A stretch of DNA of 32,609 nt from NCBI GenBank assembly GCA_031254105.1, contig JAIRVB010000054.1, forward strand, positions 1-32,609, in the 5' to 3' direction. Shown here piece after piece: positions 24,699 to 32,609 of the stretch. Source of the stretch: Chitinispirillales bacterium (lineage in GTDB: Bacteria > Fibrobacterota > Chitinivibrionia > Chitinivibrionales > Chitinispirillaceae). The translations under genes were made by a program, and so were the position numbers. Positions within the stretch are counted from its first letter, which is position 1. Every line of letters starts with the position of its first letter. The notes under the pieces were generated by a model. The model did no database searches. It saw nothing but the letters and a program-made list of their open reading frames with translations, and was not told the DNA's origin.

Positions 24699-24948
24699 AA
24701 TACATTAAATATAGTAAAACGCGCTGCCGGACAGTAGACGTAATTATTCGACTTCGTTCAAGAGTTCAGGCGGAGTAACCCGGATATCTACCGCGCTGTC
24801 TCTTTTCGTAACCGTATTCGTCCGGTTTTCTGTTTTGTTTCTCTTTTTTGTACTTTTTGTTATATGCCAATCAAATGAAAATAAAGCGGATGGGTGTTTG
24901 GATGTTTTAAATTCTGTACAGCGTCCGTATGCGTGTTTTATATACGGC

Positions 24949-24987
24949 AGTTTTCTTTGTTACTTGAGAAAATATTATTATTTCCGG
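24949..24987. repeat. 39-base direct repeat downstream of paralogue 1
   Basis: This sequence, starting AGTTTTCTTTGTTACTTGAG, recurs at 28266-28304 with only a difference or so near the end. Each copy directly follows the stop codon of an exported-family gene. The rest of the gap to 24699 holds a 68-codon open frame without a start codon and no other signal. Confidence 0.7.
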
Positions 24988-25992
24988 TTATCTCCCTCCT
25001 GGGGGTAACGGTATAATTAATATACCCGATGGATTACTTTTTGTGCTTATAAAAGAGTTTTCCCTTGGTATATTAAGTTTAACACCATAAGCAGATTCCG
25101 CCCATTTCGCAAGTCTTGTCAAGTAATCTTTGACTTTAGGGTCTTCAAGAACTCCTGATTTTGCGTAGATAGGCTCGTTTACACTTCTAAGCTCATTAGT
25201 GAGAAGCGGTTCATCCGGATGCAGCCTTCTGAGTTCATTAATGACAACTTCAATACCATAGTAAGTTATAACACTTCCGGGCCGTTCCTCAAAAATATCG
25301 GTTTCCAAACCCTTAACGAGCGCAATACGGCATTTTTTTGAGCCAACAAATGCCAAATCCCTAGCTCTACTCCTTAATTGCGCCAAAGACTTAGCTTCTT
25401 TAAAAAATGTAATCAATGAATCTTCGCTCTTTACATCGCCAAGCGCCGCGCGTTGCGCAAGTGTGTGTGTTTTTTCTGATTTAAGCCAGTGTCTTTTTTC
25501 TGAATCGGTTAGATTCAACAAACAAAGCATCTGAACCGGATCCGGGATATAGTGTTTTGCAAGCGCTTTCTGTATATCAGATTTAAAGGGTGGTAAAAGC
25601 CTCCATTCTGTCATATTTATCAACCGATTGGAAGCAGATTCTCTTAAATCTCTGTTATTATCAAAAAGAGCGCTCACTAAAATTTCAACGATGAGCGGTT
25701 CTCTGATAAGACCATTATATCCTTCACACTTCGGAGTACCGCTTCCAATTTCATATAAATCCAATAAATATTGCCTATAATAGTTATAATCAATTTTTCC
25801 CATAGAAAACGCACTAAATAAATGGCGCGACGTAGTAGTTATCCCTTTTTGCTCAATCATTTCAATCAATTTTTTCTCATTAGCTATGAGTTTTTGTTCA
25901 AAAACAGGAGTATTTGTGTCTGTTTTGGCTTCAACAACGCCACAATTCAGAAAAACGCTGACCATCAATGGCCAAATATAATTAAGTTTCAT
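24988..25992 (-). CDS. Exported HEAT-like protein, tandem paralogue 1
   Basis: This 334-residue protein of unrecognised family has a Sec signal (MKLNYIWPLMVSVFLNCGVV) and probable signal-peptidase cleavage after VEA, near residue 22. The Cys at 17 is not in a good lipobox. The mature part is helical: REPLIVEILVSALFDNNRDL followed by TEWRLLPPFKSDIQKALAKH, then THTLAQRAALGDVKSEDSLI and RDLAFVGSKKCRIALVKGLE, which look like HEAT-type helix pairs. A C-terminal helix VKDYLTRLAKWAESAYGVKL precedes a Pro/Gly tail. It is last of four copies; its ATG overlaps the previous stop (ATGA), with AAAGG before it. It is nearly identical to paralogue 4 over most of its length. Confidence 0.85.
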   Translation of the reverse strand: MKLNYIWPLMVSVFLNCGVVEAKTDTNTPVFEQKLIANEKKLIEMIEQKGITTTSRHLFSAFSMGKIDYNYYRQYLLDLYEIGSGTPKCEGYNGLIREPLIVEILVSALFDNNRDLRESASNRLINMTEWRLLPPFKSDIQKALAKHYIPDPVQMLCLLNLTDSEKRHWLKSEKTHTLAQRAALGDVKSEDSLITFFKEAKSLAQLRSRARDLAFVGSKKCRIALVKGLETDIFEERPGSVITYYGIEVVINELRRLHPDEPLLTNELRSVNEPIYAKSGVLEDPKVKDYLTRLAKWAESAYGVKLNIPRENSFISTKSNPSGILIIPLPPGGR

Positions 25993-27026
25993 TGCGGCCT
26001 TTCAAACGGAAACATGTCGTAATATGGAACAACTCTGACAGCGTTAGGATTTATCTTGCGTATAAACGAATCTTCTTTAGGCAGTTTTACTTTAACGCCA
26101 TAAGTAGATTGAACCCATTTTGCCAATTTTGTCAAATAATCTTTGACATTTGTATCATCATAAATCCCTGTTTCTTTATCGTAAACAGGCTTTTCTACGC
26201 TTCTAAACTCCTTAGTTAGAAGCAGTTCATCAGGATGTAGTCTGCTAAGTCCCTTAATGACAACACCAATACCATGGTCAATCATACCACTGCTGGGATG
26301 CTCTTGAAAAATATCCGTTTCCAAACCTTTAACAAGAGCAATACGGCATTTTTTTGAACCAACAAATGCCAAATCCCGACCCCTATTCTCTAATTGTAAA
26401 TTATTCTCAGCTTCTTTGAATAACGTAATTAATGAATCTTCACTCTTTACATCACCAAGCGCCGCACGTTGCGCAAGTGTGTGAATGTGTTCTGATTTAA
26501 GCCAATGCTTTTTTTCTGTCTCGGTTAGATTTAATAAACAAAGTATCTGAACAGGATCTGGGATATGATGTTTTGCAAGCGCTTTCTGTATATCAGATTT
26601 AAAAGGAGGTAAAAGTCTCCATTCCGCAGCTGTTGTCAACATAGTAAAAGCAAATTCTCTTACTCTTTGCTCATCATCGGAGAGTGCACACACTAAAAGC
26701 TCGACTATAAGCGGTTCTTTGATAAACCCGTTATATCCTTCCCAACTAAGAGGGCCGCATCCAATAACGCTTAAACCATGTACATAGTCCCTACGATTAT
26801 GAGCAAATTCTCCCTTAGATATGTTAAGCACTTTTTTTACTGCTGAGGTTTCAATAATACGGCCTTTCTGCTCAGCCATTTCAATCAGTTTTTTCTCATT
26901 AGCTATGATTTTTTGTTCAAAAAGCGGGATATTATCAACAGTTTTAGCTTCAATGATGCCACAATTCAAAAAAACAAACGTTAGCAGTGTCCAACCGTAT
27001 TTAAATTGTTGAATGGACAACTTCAT
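25989..27026 (-). CDS. Exported HEAT-like protein, tandem paralogue 2
   Basis: This 345-residue member of the same family has the signal MKLSIQQFKYGWTLLTFVFL ending NCGIIEA, a predicted cleavage after EA, and AAAGG four or five bases before the ATG. The family core is kept: EWRLLPPFKSDIQKALAKHH, THTLAQRAALGDVKSEDSLI, RDLAFVGSKKCRIALVKGLE and LHPDELLLTKEFRSVEKP. It differs from paralogue 1 in the N-terminal 60 mature residues and in its C-terminal tail, which ends VRVVPYYDMFPFERPQ instead of the PLPPGGR tail. Its stop overlaps the start of paralogue 1 by four bases, so the two are translated together. Confidence 0.85.
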   Translation of the reverse strand: MKLSIQQFKYGWTLLTFVFLNCGIIEAKTVDNIPLFEQKIIANEKKLIEMAEQKGRIIETSAVKKVLNISKGEFAHNRRDYVHGLSVIGCGPLSWEGYNGFIKEPLIVELLVCALSDDEQRVREFAFTMLTTAAEWRLLPPFKSDIQKALAKHHIPDPVQILCLLNLTETEKKHWLKSEHIHTLAQRAALGDVKSEDSLITLFKEAENNLQLENRGRDLAFVGSKKCRIALVKGLETDIFQEHPSSGMIDHGIGVVIKGLSRLHPDELLLTKEFRSVEKPVYDKETGIYDDTNVKDYLTKLAKWVQSTYGVKVKLPKEDSFIRKINPNAVRVVPYYDMFPFERPQ

Positions 27027-27055
27027 ATAACCTTTCTTACTTGAATAGACAACAA

Positions 27056-28105
27056 TTACTTTTGTTTATTTTTTTTAGCAGACGGTTCGGGTTCGGATGG
27101 TGGAATCGGCATAGGTGTAAAACTACCACCGAATATATTACTTTTCGTGCGTATAAAAGAGTTTTCTTTCGGTAAGTTTAATTTAACACCATAAGTGGAT
27201 TCTGCCCATTTTGCGAGTTTCGTCAAGTAATCTTTGATTTTTGGATCATCAATAATTCCTGTTTTTGTATAGATAGGTTCCTGTAAATTTCTAAACTCGC
27301 TGTTAAGAAGCGGCTCATCAGGGTGTAGTCTGCGTAGTTCCGTAATAACTGCGCTGATACCAGAAACTGATATAACAGTAGCTGGGAGGATCTTAGAAAT
27401 ATCTGTTTCCAAGCCCTTTACGAGTGCAATACGAGATTTTTGCGAACCGACAAATGCAAGATCTGCTGCAACATTCTCAAAATCATCAAAAATTTTAGCT
27501 TCCTTGAATAATGTAATCAATGAATCTTCACTCTTCCTATCCCCAAGGGCCGCGCGTTGTGCAAGCGTATGCGTTTTTTCCGATTTAAGCCATTGTTTTT
27601 TTTCAGATTCTGTTAGATTTACCAAACAAAGTAACTTTACTGGATCTGCAAAGTCATGTTTCGTAATTGCTTTTTGTATATCAGATTTAAAAGGAAGCAA
27701 AAGTCTCCATTCCGTGTGGTCTGTCAACCATTTAAAAGCCAATTCTCTAACACGCAGCTCATTATCGGAGAGAGCGCATACTAAAAGTTCAACAATAAGC
27801 GGTTCTCTGACAAGTCCATTGTACCCTTCGTTAATTAGCAGACCTGTTCCAATATGGCCCAAGCCGAATATCAACGAACTACGACGATAATCAGCTTCTT
27901 CTTTAGAAAGCAGATTAAATACATCTACAATAGAACCGTACATACGAATGCTCTTCTGTTCAACCATTTTGATCAGTTTTTTTTCATTAGCAATAATCTT
28001 CTGTTCAAAGGCAGGGAGAGCGTCAACAGGCTTAGCTTCAACGTTTGTGATGCCGCAACTCAAAAAAACGCTAATTGTCAATATACAGCTATATTTAAAT
28101 TCCAT
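27056..28105 (-). CDS. Exported HEAT-like protein, tandem paralogue 3
   Basis: This 349-residue member is the most divergent of the four. The signal MEFKYSCILTISVFLSCGIT leads to NVEA, with cleavage likely after it. The core is recognisable: EWRLLLPFKSDIQKAITKHD, THTLAQRAALGDRKSEDSLI, ADLAFVGSQKSRIALVKGLE. The C-terminus ends in a Pro/Glu-rich, Lys-rich tail (PPSEPEPSAKKNKQK) that the others lack. Only a weak TGGA precedes the ATG. It lies 29 bases upstream of paralogue 2 on the same strand. Function unknown; a periplasmic or surface scaffold role is only suggested by the helical repeats. Confidence 0.83.
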   Translation of the reverse strand: MEFKYSCILTISVFLSCGITNVEAKPVDALPAFEQKIIANEKKLIKMVEQKSIRMYGSIVDVFNLLSKEEADYRRSSLIFGLGHIGTGLLINEGYNGLVREPLIVELLVCALSDNELRVRELAFKWLTDHTEWRLLLPFKSDIQKAITKHDFADPVKLLCLVNLTESEKKQWLKSEKTHTLAQRAALGDRKSEDSLITLFKEAKIFDDFENVAADLAFVGSQKSRIALVKGLETDISKILPATVISVSGISAVITELRRLHPDEPLLNSEFRNLQEPIYTKTGIIDDPKIKDYLTKLAKWAESTYGVKLNLPKENSFIRTKSNIFGGSFTPMPIPPSEPEPSAKKNKQK

Positions 28106-28265
28106 TTACAAATCCATCTTCTCAATTTATTAACTTTGTATAAATAATTTTACTTTCTCTATTTATGGAATTGCGCCAGTTGCCTTTGTGAAGCTTTGCC
28201 ATTATGTTTGTAAATTGTGGTATATGTCCCTTGTACTGACTTGCCGAGCAAACAACCCCCATATA

Positions 28266-28304
28266 AGTTTTCTTTGTTACTTGAGAAAATATTATTATTT
28301 CCGG
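28266..28304. repeat. 39-base direct repeat downstream of paralogue 4
   Basis: This matches 24949-24987 at an offset of 3317 bases, the same offset as between the stops of paralogues 4 and 1. The similarity of the two genes therefore extends past the stop codon into non-coding DNA, as expected for a recent duplication or gene conversion tract. Confidence 0.75.
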
Positions 28305-29318
28305 TTACCTCCCTCCTGGGGGTAACGGTATAATTAATATACCCGATGGATTACTTTTTGTGCGTATAAAAGAGTTTTCCCTCGGTATATTAAGTTTAAC
28401 ACCATAAGTAGATTCCGCCCATTTCGCAAGTCTTGTCAAATAATCCTTGACTTTAAGGTCTTCAAGAATTCCTGACTTTGCGTATATAGGTTCCTCAACA
28501 CTTCTAAACTCATTCGTCAGAAGCGGTTCATCCGGATGTAGCCTTCTAAGTTCGTTAATGACAACGACAATACCATAATGAGTTATAACACTTCCCGGCT
28601 GTTCCACGAAAAGATCGTTTTCCAAACCCTTAACGAGCGCAATACGGCATTTTTTTGAGCCAACAAATGCCAAATCTTCGGCTCCATTACTTAATTGCCC
28701 CCAAGTTTTAGCTTTTTTGAATAATGTAATCAATGAATCTTCGCTCTTTACATCGCCAAGCGCCGCGCGCTGCGCAAGTGTGTGTGTTTTTTCTGATTTA
28801 AGCCAATGCCTTTTTTCTGAATCAGTAAGGTTTAACAAACAGAGCAGTTTAACGGGATCCGGAATATAATGTTTTGCAAGCGCTTTCTGTATATCAGATT
28901 TAAAAGGTGGTAAAAGCCTCCATTCTGTAGAATTTATCAACAGATTGGAAGCAAATTCTCTCAAATCTTTGTTATTGTCAAAAAGAGCGCTCACTAAAAT
29001 CTCAACGATGAGCGGTTCTCTGATAAGACCATTGTGTATTTCGCACTTTGGAGTGCCTCTTCCAATTTCATATAAAACCCATAAATATTCTCTATAATAG
29101 TTATAATCAATTTTTTCCATAGAAAACGCGCTAAGTAGATGGCGCACTACTGATGACTTAGTAGATATCCCCTTTTGCTCAATCATTTCAATTAATATTT
29201 TCTCATTAGCGATGAGTTTTTGTTCAAAAACAGGAGTATTTGTGTCTGTTTTGGCTTCAACAACGCCACAATTGAAAAAAACAAACGTTAGCAGTGTCCA
29301 ACCGTACTTAAGTTTCAT
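28305..29318 (-). CDS. Exported HEAT-like protein, tandem paralogue 4 (mosaic)
   Basis: This 337-residue member, first of the four to be transcribed, has AGGA seven bases before the ATG. Its body is close to paralogue 1 (AKTDTNTPVFEQKLIANEK, EWRLLPPFKSDIQKALAKHY, and the same GILIIPLPPGGR tail). Its signal peptide, YGWTLLTFVFFNCGVVEA, is instead of the paralogue 2 type. At the DNA level, 29275-29306 is identical to 26968-26999 of paralogue 2, while the adjoining sequence on the other side follows paralogue 1. This marks a recombination junction near 29270. It includes a short insertion (SSVV) after residue 54 that paralogue 1 lacks. Confidence 0.85.
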   Translation of the reverse strand: MKLKYGWTLLTFVFFNCGVVEAKTDTNTPVFEQKLIANEKILIEMIEQKGISTKSSVVRHLLSAFSMEKIDYNYYREYLWVLYEIGRGTPKCEIHNGLIREPLIVEILVSALFDNNKDLREFASNLLINSTEWRLLPPFKSDIQKALAKHYIPDPVKLLCLLNLTDSEKRHWLKSEKTHTLAQRAALGDVKSEDSLITLFKKAKTWGQLSNGAEDLAFVGSKKCRIALVKGLENDLFVEQPGSVITHYGIVVVINELRRLHPDEPLLTNEFRSVEEPIYAKSGILEDLKVKDYLTRLAKWAESTYGVKLNIPRENSFIRTKSNPSGILIIPLPPGGR

Positions 29319-30803: not shown

Positions 30804-32609
30804 TTAAAACTGTTTTTTGCTGACAAATACTCTGATGTTACCATCTGGGATATTATACAGAATGGTAGCATCGGGGTTATCTCCGACAATACTATAGTTA
30901 TTCGAAAATATTATAGGTTTCCCTTTAGTCCTGTCGGGTGTTAACGACCAAAACAGATAATTGCCGCCCTCCTCTCCTGCGCGGTACAATCTGACTTTTG
31001 TGGTTACAGCGCCCGGAATTCGATTCATGTTAGCATCCAAAGCGGTAACTTCCGCTTCAAAACTTGAAACTCTTGTTTTTTTGTGTTTCTGAACTTTCGC
31101 CCGAACAACCCGCGCATGAGCTCCATTTGCTACGATATGGATTCTCCGTTGAAGTGTGTGAGGATTCCCTGCCGCCTCAATAGAAAGATTCGTAAAAACA
31201 GGAATATCTTCCGCCACAGTAAAGACGCCGTAAACAAACCGGCCTAAAACATCCGTTGTTGGCTGTATCGGTAAACTTTCGTAAGCGCCCATATCGTAAC
31301 GGTCTCCGACCGGACGGTCAAAGCCGACAAAATCAGTTTCGAATCCGACAGTGTCGGCGGAATACCGGCACGGGCTATCCTGTTTTAACTTCAAACCATC
31401 GTCATAGGTCGCAAATTTTCCATCGTCACCGGCAGGCAGGTCAACATCAACAAAACGCGGATCATCCGAAATATTGCCGGTACCCTGATAACCATTTGTC
31501 ACACAAGAATAATTAACTGTAAACTTTGACCCGCTCAGTTCGCCATATCCGTTTTTGAGATTGTTCCATAAAATGCTGTTGTGGATAATCGCGGATGAAG
31601 AGCTGTCCCTGTTTACAATTCCGCCCGTTCCTTTAATTGAGGCATTGTTTACGTTAGTGCTATACAAAACGGATAACATTCCCGAATTGTTATAGATAGA
31701 GCCGCCATTTCCCGCAGCGCTGTTTTTAACAAATACACATGTAGACAATGTAACATTCGAACTATTCAGATAAAGCGCTCCGCCGCGGGAAGCATGGGCG
31801 GAATCGGTTCCGGCGATATTGTTTGCAAAGGCGGTGTGATTTATCAAAGCATAACCGGCATCATTCAAAAACAAACCGGCTCCGTTTCCCTGAAGTGAAA
31901 CATTATCTCTGATTACGCTATTCTCTATTGTTATGGATGCCGCGTTAGTATAGATACCCGCGCCGTCTGACAGAGAAAAGTTTCTTATTATTGCGCAATT
32001 AACTATTGTGGGTATACGCTCGGTATTATGGATACCTGCACCTGAGTTGTTACTTCCTGTTCCATTCGCGACCCCGCCCCTGATAGTTAAGCCTTCTATT
32101 CTTATCCCTCCGGAACCGGGATTTCCATCTGTCATCATCACACGGTAAACGTTGTCGTTCATGTGCTGCAGATCATTTGCTGAAGGCGGCCAAGATTTTA
32201 TATTTTGATCATTCTTACTTAAATCTCCGCTCAAAATTGTCAAATACGGTGATCCTTTAGGTTTCCTTCCAGTTTCATCACCATTAAACCCGCCAATGAT
32301 CTCTATCCCCGGTTTAATCAAAAAGGCAGCCGACCTCGGGTCATTCTGATTCGTTTTATATACCGGGTAATAAGTTCCCTCAGCCACCCAGATTTCCTTA
32401 CCCTCTTTTTCCGCTTTGTCTATAGCTTTTTGCAGACATTTGTACGCGCTCTGCCAGGAATTCCCATTCTCCTGTCCTGGCAGCGCGGGAGATTTCTCAT
32501 TTACAAAAATCCGGTAGTCCGGTGACTTTTGCACATTTATCACGTACATTGTCTTACCGCAGTTCTGCGGATCTTTTACCTCAACTGTGATGTCGGTTGA
32601 TGAGCTGTT
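30804..32609 (-). CDS. Parallel beta-helix surface protein, N-terminus cut by window edge
   Basis: The reading frame stays open to the window end, so the start lies outside; the ATG at 32549 is internal. The visible part begins with the end of a cadherin-like beta-sandwich (DITVEVKDPQNCGKTMYVIN). A right-handed beta-helix follows (NGNSWQSAYKCLQKAIDKA, EIWVAEGTYYP, repeated NSSGAGIHN-, GGALYLNSSN- and GGSIYNNSG-like turns) and closes with FDRPVGDRYDMGAYES, a choice-of-anchor-Q type ending. About 155 further residues form a C-terminal domain I do not recognise. Such proteins are secreted or surface-attached, often adhesive or polysaccharide-active; no catalytic site is evident. Confidence 0.85.
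   Translation of the reverse strand, partial: NSSSTDITVEVKDPQNCGKTMYVINVQKSPDYRIFVNEKSPALPGQENGNSWQSAYKCLQKAIDKAEKEGKEIWVAEGTYYPVYKTNQNDPRSAAFLIKPGIEIIGGFNGDETGRKPKGSPYLTILSGDLSKNDQNIKSWPPSANDLQHMNDNVYRVMMTDGNPGSGGIRIEGLTIRGGVANGTGSNNSGAGIHNTERIPTIVNCAIIRNFSLSDGAGIYTNAASITIENSVIRDNVSLQGNGAGLFLNDAGYALINHTAFANNIAGTDSAHASRGGALYLNSSNVTLSTCVFVKNSAAGNGGSIYNNSGMLSVLYSTNVNNASIKGTGGIVNRDSSSSAIIHNSILWNNLKNGYGELSGSKFTVNYSCVTNGYQGTGNISDDPRFVDVDLPAGDDGKFATYDDGLKLKQDSPCRYSADTVGFETDFVGFDRPVGDRYDMGAYESLPIQPTTDVLGRFVYGVFTVAEDIPVFTNLSIEAAGNPHTLQRRIHIVANGAHARVVRAKVQKHKKTRVSSFEAEVTALDANMNRIPGAVTTKVRLYRAGEEGGNYLFWSLTPDRTKGKPIIFSNNYSIVGDNPDATILYNIPDGNIRVFVSKKQF

Follow-up and report, generated by a model that had tools for sequence, protein, structure and literature searches.

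Why would a bacterium keep four diverged copies of one exported protein in a row, and what would they be for? The question is raised by contig JAIRVB010000054.1 of a Chitinispirillales bacterium (assembly GCA_031254105.1, phylum Fibrobacterota), whose entire length of 32,609 nucleotides we call the window; it is contig C25 of a 3.68-Mb source genome (G000) assembled in 56 contigs. Four consecutive minus-strand genes in it encode HEAT-like proteins, directly downstream of a gene for a lipoprotein with a metzincin-like peptidase domain, itself preceded by a gene for a large beta-helix surface protein. Comparison of this locus with 40 genomes of the same class and 168 genomes of the phylum showed that the HEAT-like genes are the last part of a multi-gene module, to which the lipoprotein and the beta-helix protein belong as components and not as mere neighbours. 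From the way these genes occur together, and by analogy with known pairs of proteases and inhibitors, we see about an even chance that the HEAT-like proteins are cognate exported inhibitors, or immunity proteins, of the adjacent peptidase.

The HEAT-like genes and the peptidase active site

Ten high-scoring metzincins with an intact HExxH motif (E < 1e-60) were found among the phylum genomes. All ten have a HEAT-like gene directly downstream on the same strand, separated by -28 to +116 nt and within 45 nt in nine cases; in the window the gap is 45 nt. Two cassettes of the source genome have a dead peptidase: HELAK stands in place of HExxH in C17 (L088:7774-9354), and the lipoprotein of C18 lacks a catalytic domain. 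Neither has a HEAT-like gene, and both retain an intact beta-helix gene and the N-terminal regions of the peptidase lipoprotein. Presence of the HEAT-like gene in 10/10 intact versus 0/2 dead cassettes gives a Fisher p of 0.015, among members that are not fully independent. In C17 the C-terminus of the beta-helix protein is also duplicated as a separate lipoprotein.

HEAT-like genes also occur alone. In cassette C22 of the source genome (L021:10797-11069) a deletion left an in-frame fusion of ~53 initial beta-helix codons with the tail of the peptidase gene, and the downstream HEAT-like gene survived intact. In four other genomes (G030, G008, G011 and G021), whole or fragmentary HEAT-like genes stand without any peptidase that could be detected. 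The association is thus asymmetric, because no intact peptidase lacks a HEAT-like gene, but HEAT-like genes sometimes lack a peptidase, as would be expected if they encode inhibitors or immunity proteins. The two families have diversified together, as the identity matrices of the peptidases and of the first HEAT-like proteins are correlated (Mantel r 0.90, p 5e-5). The orphan in G021 (L058:2357-3028) is truncated and lies among nitrogenase-like genes.

Relatives of the HEAT-like proteins occur in 9/40 class genomes and 11/168 phylum genomes, and the gene order recurs: a large beta-helix protein, an HExxH lipoprotein, then one to four exported HEAT-like genes. Nearly all these HEAT-like proteins have an N-terminal signal sequence, the exception being one copy in G166. 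The source genome alone holds eight cassettes or remnants. Besides the four genes of the window, there are two HEAT-like genes and a fragment in C14, one gene and pseudogene pieces in C34, one gene and a truncated copy in C41, one gene at the contig end in C2 (where a stop interrupts the peptidase frame upstream of the catalytic part), the intact gene of the remnant C22, and none in C17 and C18.

The module takes other forms in other genomes. In G083 the peptidase and the HEAT-like gene occur without a beta-helix gene. In G166 (L063:3-6035; 64% GC, from a metagenome-assembled genome with 80% completeness and 4% contamination) an OmpA/PG_binding_1 protein carries the peptidase as its C-terminal domain; two HEAT-like genes and another OmpA/peptidoglycan-binding protein come next. 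Elsewhere the peptidase has a gene of its own. Finally, the four loci of the outgroup family f8 (L126-L129) have a beta-helix/metzincin operon with an exported protein of FGE-sulfatase fold in the slot of the HEAT-like gene (4/4; two loci were tested by profile and the other two align with them). We found no HEAT-like gene in the f8 loci searched, and the FGE-fold protein is probably a non-homologous partner in the same position. The order peptidase-HEAT-HEAT, with the peptidase split in two frames, was also found in a 3.6-kb contig labelled Ignavibacteria (L066, JAAYAN010000093.1), which could be misbinned.

The catalytic motif of the lipoprotein is conserved: HExxH is kept in 9/9 aligned relatives, and in 11/11 in a second alignment. 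The window protein has HELSH at residues 382-386, a possible third metal ligand at D395, a GNVMNY motif resembling a Met-turn, and a C-terminal R...QW. The third-ligand position is H or D in all aligned members, after 6-8 intervening residues in the group of the window. The N-x-M turn and the R...QW are common to the nine relatives, with one deviation at N among the eleven, and most aligned relatives have a DxNxNGxLD loop. The outgroup peptidases of f8 carry the canonical metzincin motif HExxHxxGLxD. On these motifs we call the window protein metzincin-like.

Divergence, fold and surroundings of the array

The sequence-only reading of the window had described four consecutive minus-strand paralogues with a signal ending in (V/I)EA, a constant core and variable ends, flanked on the same strand by a HELSH lipoprotein and a beta-helix protein. 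This description is confirmed (Table 1). The four open reading frames start with ATG, run without interruption in one direction, and encode proteins that are 62-87% identical (87, 63 and 62% versus the first copy). The signal end and the core motifs are present in 4/4, with single substitutions in the second copy. The rate of nonsynonymous substitution (dN) is lowest at alignment columns 160-200 (0.02-0.12); most pairs have their maximum at the C-terminal tail (0.43-0.60), and values are also high at columns 40-120. The relative in G005 (L024:3110-4132) ends in a run of a 6-residue repeat, ETWKDG-T, possibly a slippage-prone tail.

Table 1. Features of the array and of its surroundings in the window
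Feature	Position	Strand	Basis or remark
HEAT-like exported protein, copy 1 (P0004), 337 residues	28305..29318	minus	Open reading frame call, alignment, structure model
HEAT-like exported protein, copy 2 (P0003), 349 residues	27056..28105	minus	Open reading frame call, alignment
HEAT-like exported protein, copy 3 (P0002), 345 residues	25989..27026	minus	Last 4 nt overlap with the following gene
HEAT-like exported protein, copy 4 (P0001), 334 residues	24988..25992	minus	87% identical to copy 1, same 3' flank
Lipoprotein with metzincin-like peptidase domain, 451 residues	29364..30719	minus	Motifs, alignment of relatives
HELSH codons	29562..29576	minus	Position from translation
Large secreted beta-helix protein (choice-of-anchor Q), cut off at its 5' side by the contig end	30804..32609	minus	NCBIfam choice_anch_Q, 30.7 bits (cut-off 25)
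Conserved part of beta-helix gene	32209..32609	minus	83-85% DNA identity to three other loci of the same genome
3' remnant of exported-protein gene (probably outer-membrane beta-barrel, by eye)	24825..24953	minus	tblastn, 79% over residues 362-404 of the C41 protein

Over whole genes, the synonymous rate (dS) between copies is 0.30-1.25 and dN/dS is 0.22-0.35; the copies are therefore old and selectively maintained, i.e., functional duplicates under purifying selection. These dS values rule out an assembly duplication, which had been named as one way in which the array might prove trivial. The earlier suggestion of a diversifying family fares less well: the ends do vary, but we found no sign of positive selection on the genes or their ends, and no dN/dS above 1 over genes.

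Several lines of evidence agree on the fold. A profile of the four copies matches the alphaRep HEAT designs in the PDB (E 5e-6), a profile of 15 relatives does so more strongly (E 1.4e-8), and all PDB matches of these two profiles were either designed alpha-helical repeats or HEAT-type chains. One relative in G166 (L063:2788-3768) exceeds the cut-off of Pfam HEAT_2 (PF13646) with 39.1 bits vs 27.7. The structure model is all-helical, with paired helices (predicted local distance difference test, pLDDT, 80; predicted template modelling score, pTM, 0.78); its nearest PDB structures are again alphaReps, at non-significant E-values (0.085 and up). The two alignments used for structure prediction, for this protein and for the peptidase, excluded the loci found by genome search and were shallow (8 and 3 sequences). 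It is thus well supported, by profiles and by modelling, that the window proteins are HEAT-like, as had been proposed, though they are themselves below curated thresholds. They are also unrecognised, as claimed: none scores above cut-off in Pfam, NCBIfam, PADLOC or PHROGs. One pattern scan of viral contigs gave no relative, nor did plasmids searched with distant relatives as queries. The four copies had no match in a wide scan of species, and a second scan, with a mixed alignment, gave two contigs, one being G036 itself. Such scanning identified WJKA01000346.1, a public 'Chitinivibrionales' metagenome-assembled genome, as a relative of the same order.

The beta-helix gene has a conserved 5' part and a variable 3' part. 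Sliding comparisons give 76-92% DNA identity over about the first 2 kb and 30-80%, depending on the pair, in the 3' part; in the window, no DNA match to its own genome was found 3' of position 32209 within the 710 bp searched. Full-length homologues of ~1060 residues are present in C14, C17 and C18, with an N-terminal domain that is CBM3-like by eye, a cadherin-like domain (the Pfam Cadherin-like family matched in those tested) and PMP-type beta-helix repeats. C34 and C41 share 119 identical starting bases and then fall to 59% identity, a pattern that assembly at a repeat would also produce. Since the contigs of the window, C34 and C41 all end inside the beta-helix repeat, the assembly is probably the reason why their 5' halves are missing. 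The sequence-only reading also spoke of active recombination. The drops of identity in the beta-helix genes and the 3' flank common to the first and fourth HEAT-like copies support it indirectly only, and exchange between cassettes is plausible.

Other genes accompany the module. Behind the sister cassette C41 lies an intact gene for an exported protein of 404 residues, probably a beta-barrel; remnants of it are found in the window and elsewhere, and the gene occurs behind several cassettes (window 24825-24953, L054:4641-5855, L021:9101-9634, L053:4864-5145). Contig C40 of the source genome (L089:5371-7578) encodes repeats of the beta-helix N-terminal, CBM3-like domain with DUF6973 and ChW repeats, a different protein that uses the same surface module. 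No RNA genes were found in the window. Scans for promoter-like sites (29 vs 21.8 expected) and for terminator-like sites (mostly on the strand opposite to the genes) were uninformative.

What the HEAT-like proteins may do

We favour a role as inhibitors or immunity proteins because a HEAT-like gene adjoins every intact metzincin found, is absent where the peptidase is dead, is retained as an orphan, and is substituted by another fold in f8. In this scenario, the peptidase, once exported, would be held by its lipid anchor in the vicinity of the beta-helix surface protein, and would be active there. The HEAT-like proteins, exported by Sec, would attach to it, either at the surface or in the periplasm, and prevent self-digestion. 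The duplicated and diverged copies might cover peptidase variants from the cell's other cassettes or from neighbours, so that the tandem genes would form a polyimmunity-like array. Several observations count against this proposal. Dead-peptidase cassettes number only two, and some of the orphan HEAT-like loci lie at contig ends (G014, G008, G030). The Mantel signal owes most to three cassettes of a single genome that are related to one another, and common descent would produce it as well. The metzincin assignment has its own weaknesses: Pfam M12/M43 matches are sub-threshold and restricted to 2/4 of the distant relatives in f8, the profile search gave no PDB relative of the peptidase, and its structure model (pLDDT 40) is too poor to confirm a metzincin fold. 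Finally, HEAT repeats bind many partners, making a role in chaperoning or assembly possible.

This last idea deserves to be spelled out. The HEAT-like proteins might assist the peptidase and the beta-helix protein, as dedicated chaperones of secretion or folding or as factors for assembly at the surface, with different copies serving different substrates. Adjacency and co-diversification are equally expected of such factors, a replacement by an FGE-fold protein fits a scaffold role equally well, and the beta-helix and peptidase genes do stand together in the complete loci of the class and in f8. Yet C17 and C18 keep the beta-helix gene and the N-terminal regions of the lipoprotein without any HEAT-like gene, so the latter tracks the catalytic domain, and the orphan gene of C22 persists without clients. 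We regard this explanation as rather unlikely. A purely structural or ligand-binding role in the envelope, at the surface or in the periplasm, with the linkage to the peptidase incidental to a lipoprotein/adhesin operon, is very improbable. It would fit the export of all products, as judged from their N-termini, and the cadherin-like, CBM_4_9 or PMP-type domains of the beta-helix proteins, but it leaves unexplained that HEAT-like genes follow every peptidase with an intact active site and are absent where that site is lost, or that the linkage is kept in G083 and G166 without a beta-helix gene. Among the roles offered by the sequence-only reading, inhibitor or immunity protein is hence better supported than envelope diversification.

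A stronger form of the inhibitor reading, overlapping with it, would make the module a polymorphic interbacterial weapon, in which the conserved beta-helix protein, its 3' cassettes being interchangeable, carries the metzincin to competitors, and the HEAT-like array confers immunity. The conserved 5' and variable 3' ends of the beta-helix genes with their abrupt drops of identity, the eight loci or remnants in one genome, the toxin-like C-terminal position of the peptidase in the G166 fusion, and the orphan and pseudogene copies, as well as the resemblance to polyimmunity loci, all point in this direction. Conversely, most loci encode the peptidase as a lipoprotein of its own, we identified no delivery machine, no known toxin domain is recognised at the C-terminus of the beta-helix protein, and a protease for nutrition or surface processing would leave a similar picture. 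We thus consider this version unlikely; the peptidase may be a weapon, but it may also serve surface processing or nutrition. Similarly doubtful is the broader proposal of an undescribed polymorphic peptidase system of Fibrobacterota, serving competition between neighbours, that would combine a beta-helix surface protein whose 3' end recombines, a metzincin fixed by its anchor, and an exchangeable slot for an exported immunity protein, HEAT or FGE-fold according to the clade.

Should the favoured reading of inhibitors or immunity proteins be correct, the bacterial inhibitors of metalloproteases would include a new class, that of HEAT solenoids, encoded beside their targets in a little-studied phylum, and non-homologous partners would occupy one operon slot. 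The array would then provide a clean test case for the evolution of inhibitor specificity by tandem duplication, and families left blank by current libraries would gain a testable function.

Comparison with known systems

The pairing of a metzincin with an adjacent exported inhibitor is already known in kind, but we did not find multi-copy HEAT solenoids in this role, with an FGE-fold substitute in a sister clade and a beta-helix partner, in the libraries or the papers searched. AprA and AprI are the classic case of a metzincin with its inhibitor encoded alongside, and BamI, the product of the gene next to that of the metzincin Mep72, binds Mep72 and neutralises its toxicity in E. coli (PMC4334185). 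These Pseudomonas systems resemble ours in having a secreted protease, metzincin-like in our case, and an exported partner as neighbours in one operon, and Mep72 likewise has carbohydrate-binding modules. In our module, by contrast, a lipoprotein carries the peptidase domain, its partner is present in up to four copies, a beta-helix gene lies upstream, and inhibition is predicted. The fold of AprI is well defined, and part of BamI is unfolded (PMC4334185); neither is reported as a HEAT solenoid.

HEAT_2 and alphaRep proteins are solenoids of helical hairpins, and the model predicts a similar architecture for the window proteins. Unlike them, the window proteins fall below every Pfam cut-off, and have a Sec signal together with a core, RAxLGDxxxExxLI, that is specific to their family. 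HEAT repeats do figure on a published list of immunity types, there for the nuclease toxin Tox-REase-7, and tandem arrays of paralogous immunity genes have been described as 'homogeneous polyimmunity loci' (PMC3482391). The array of the window resembles such loci in its tandem, diverged paralogues on the same strand, with short gaps and orphan copies elsewhere. Its partner is nevertheless a metzincin-like lipoprotein and not Tox-REase-7, and no RHS, contact-dependent inhibition (CDI) or type VI secretion system (T6SS) carrier was found. Moreover, published polyimmunity loci sit apart from regular toxin loci, whereas the HEAT-like array lies directly behind its peptidase.

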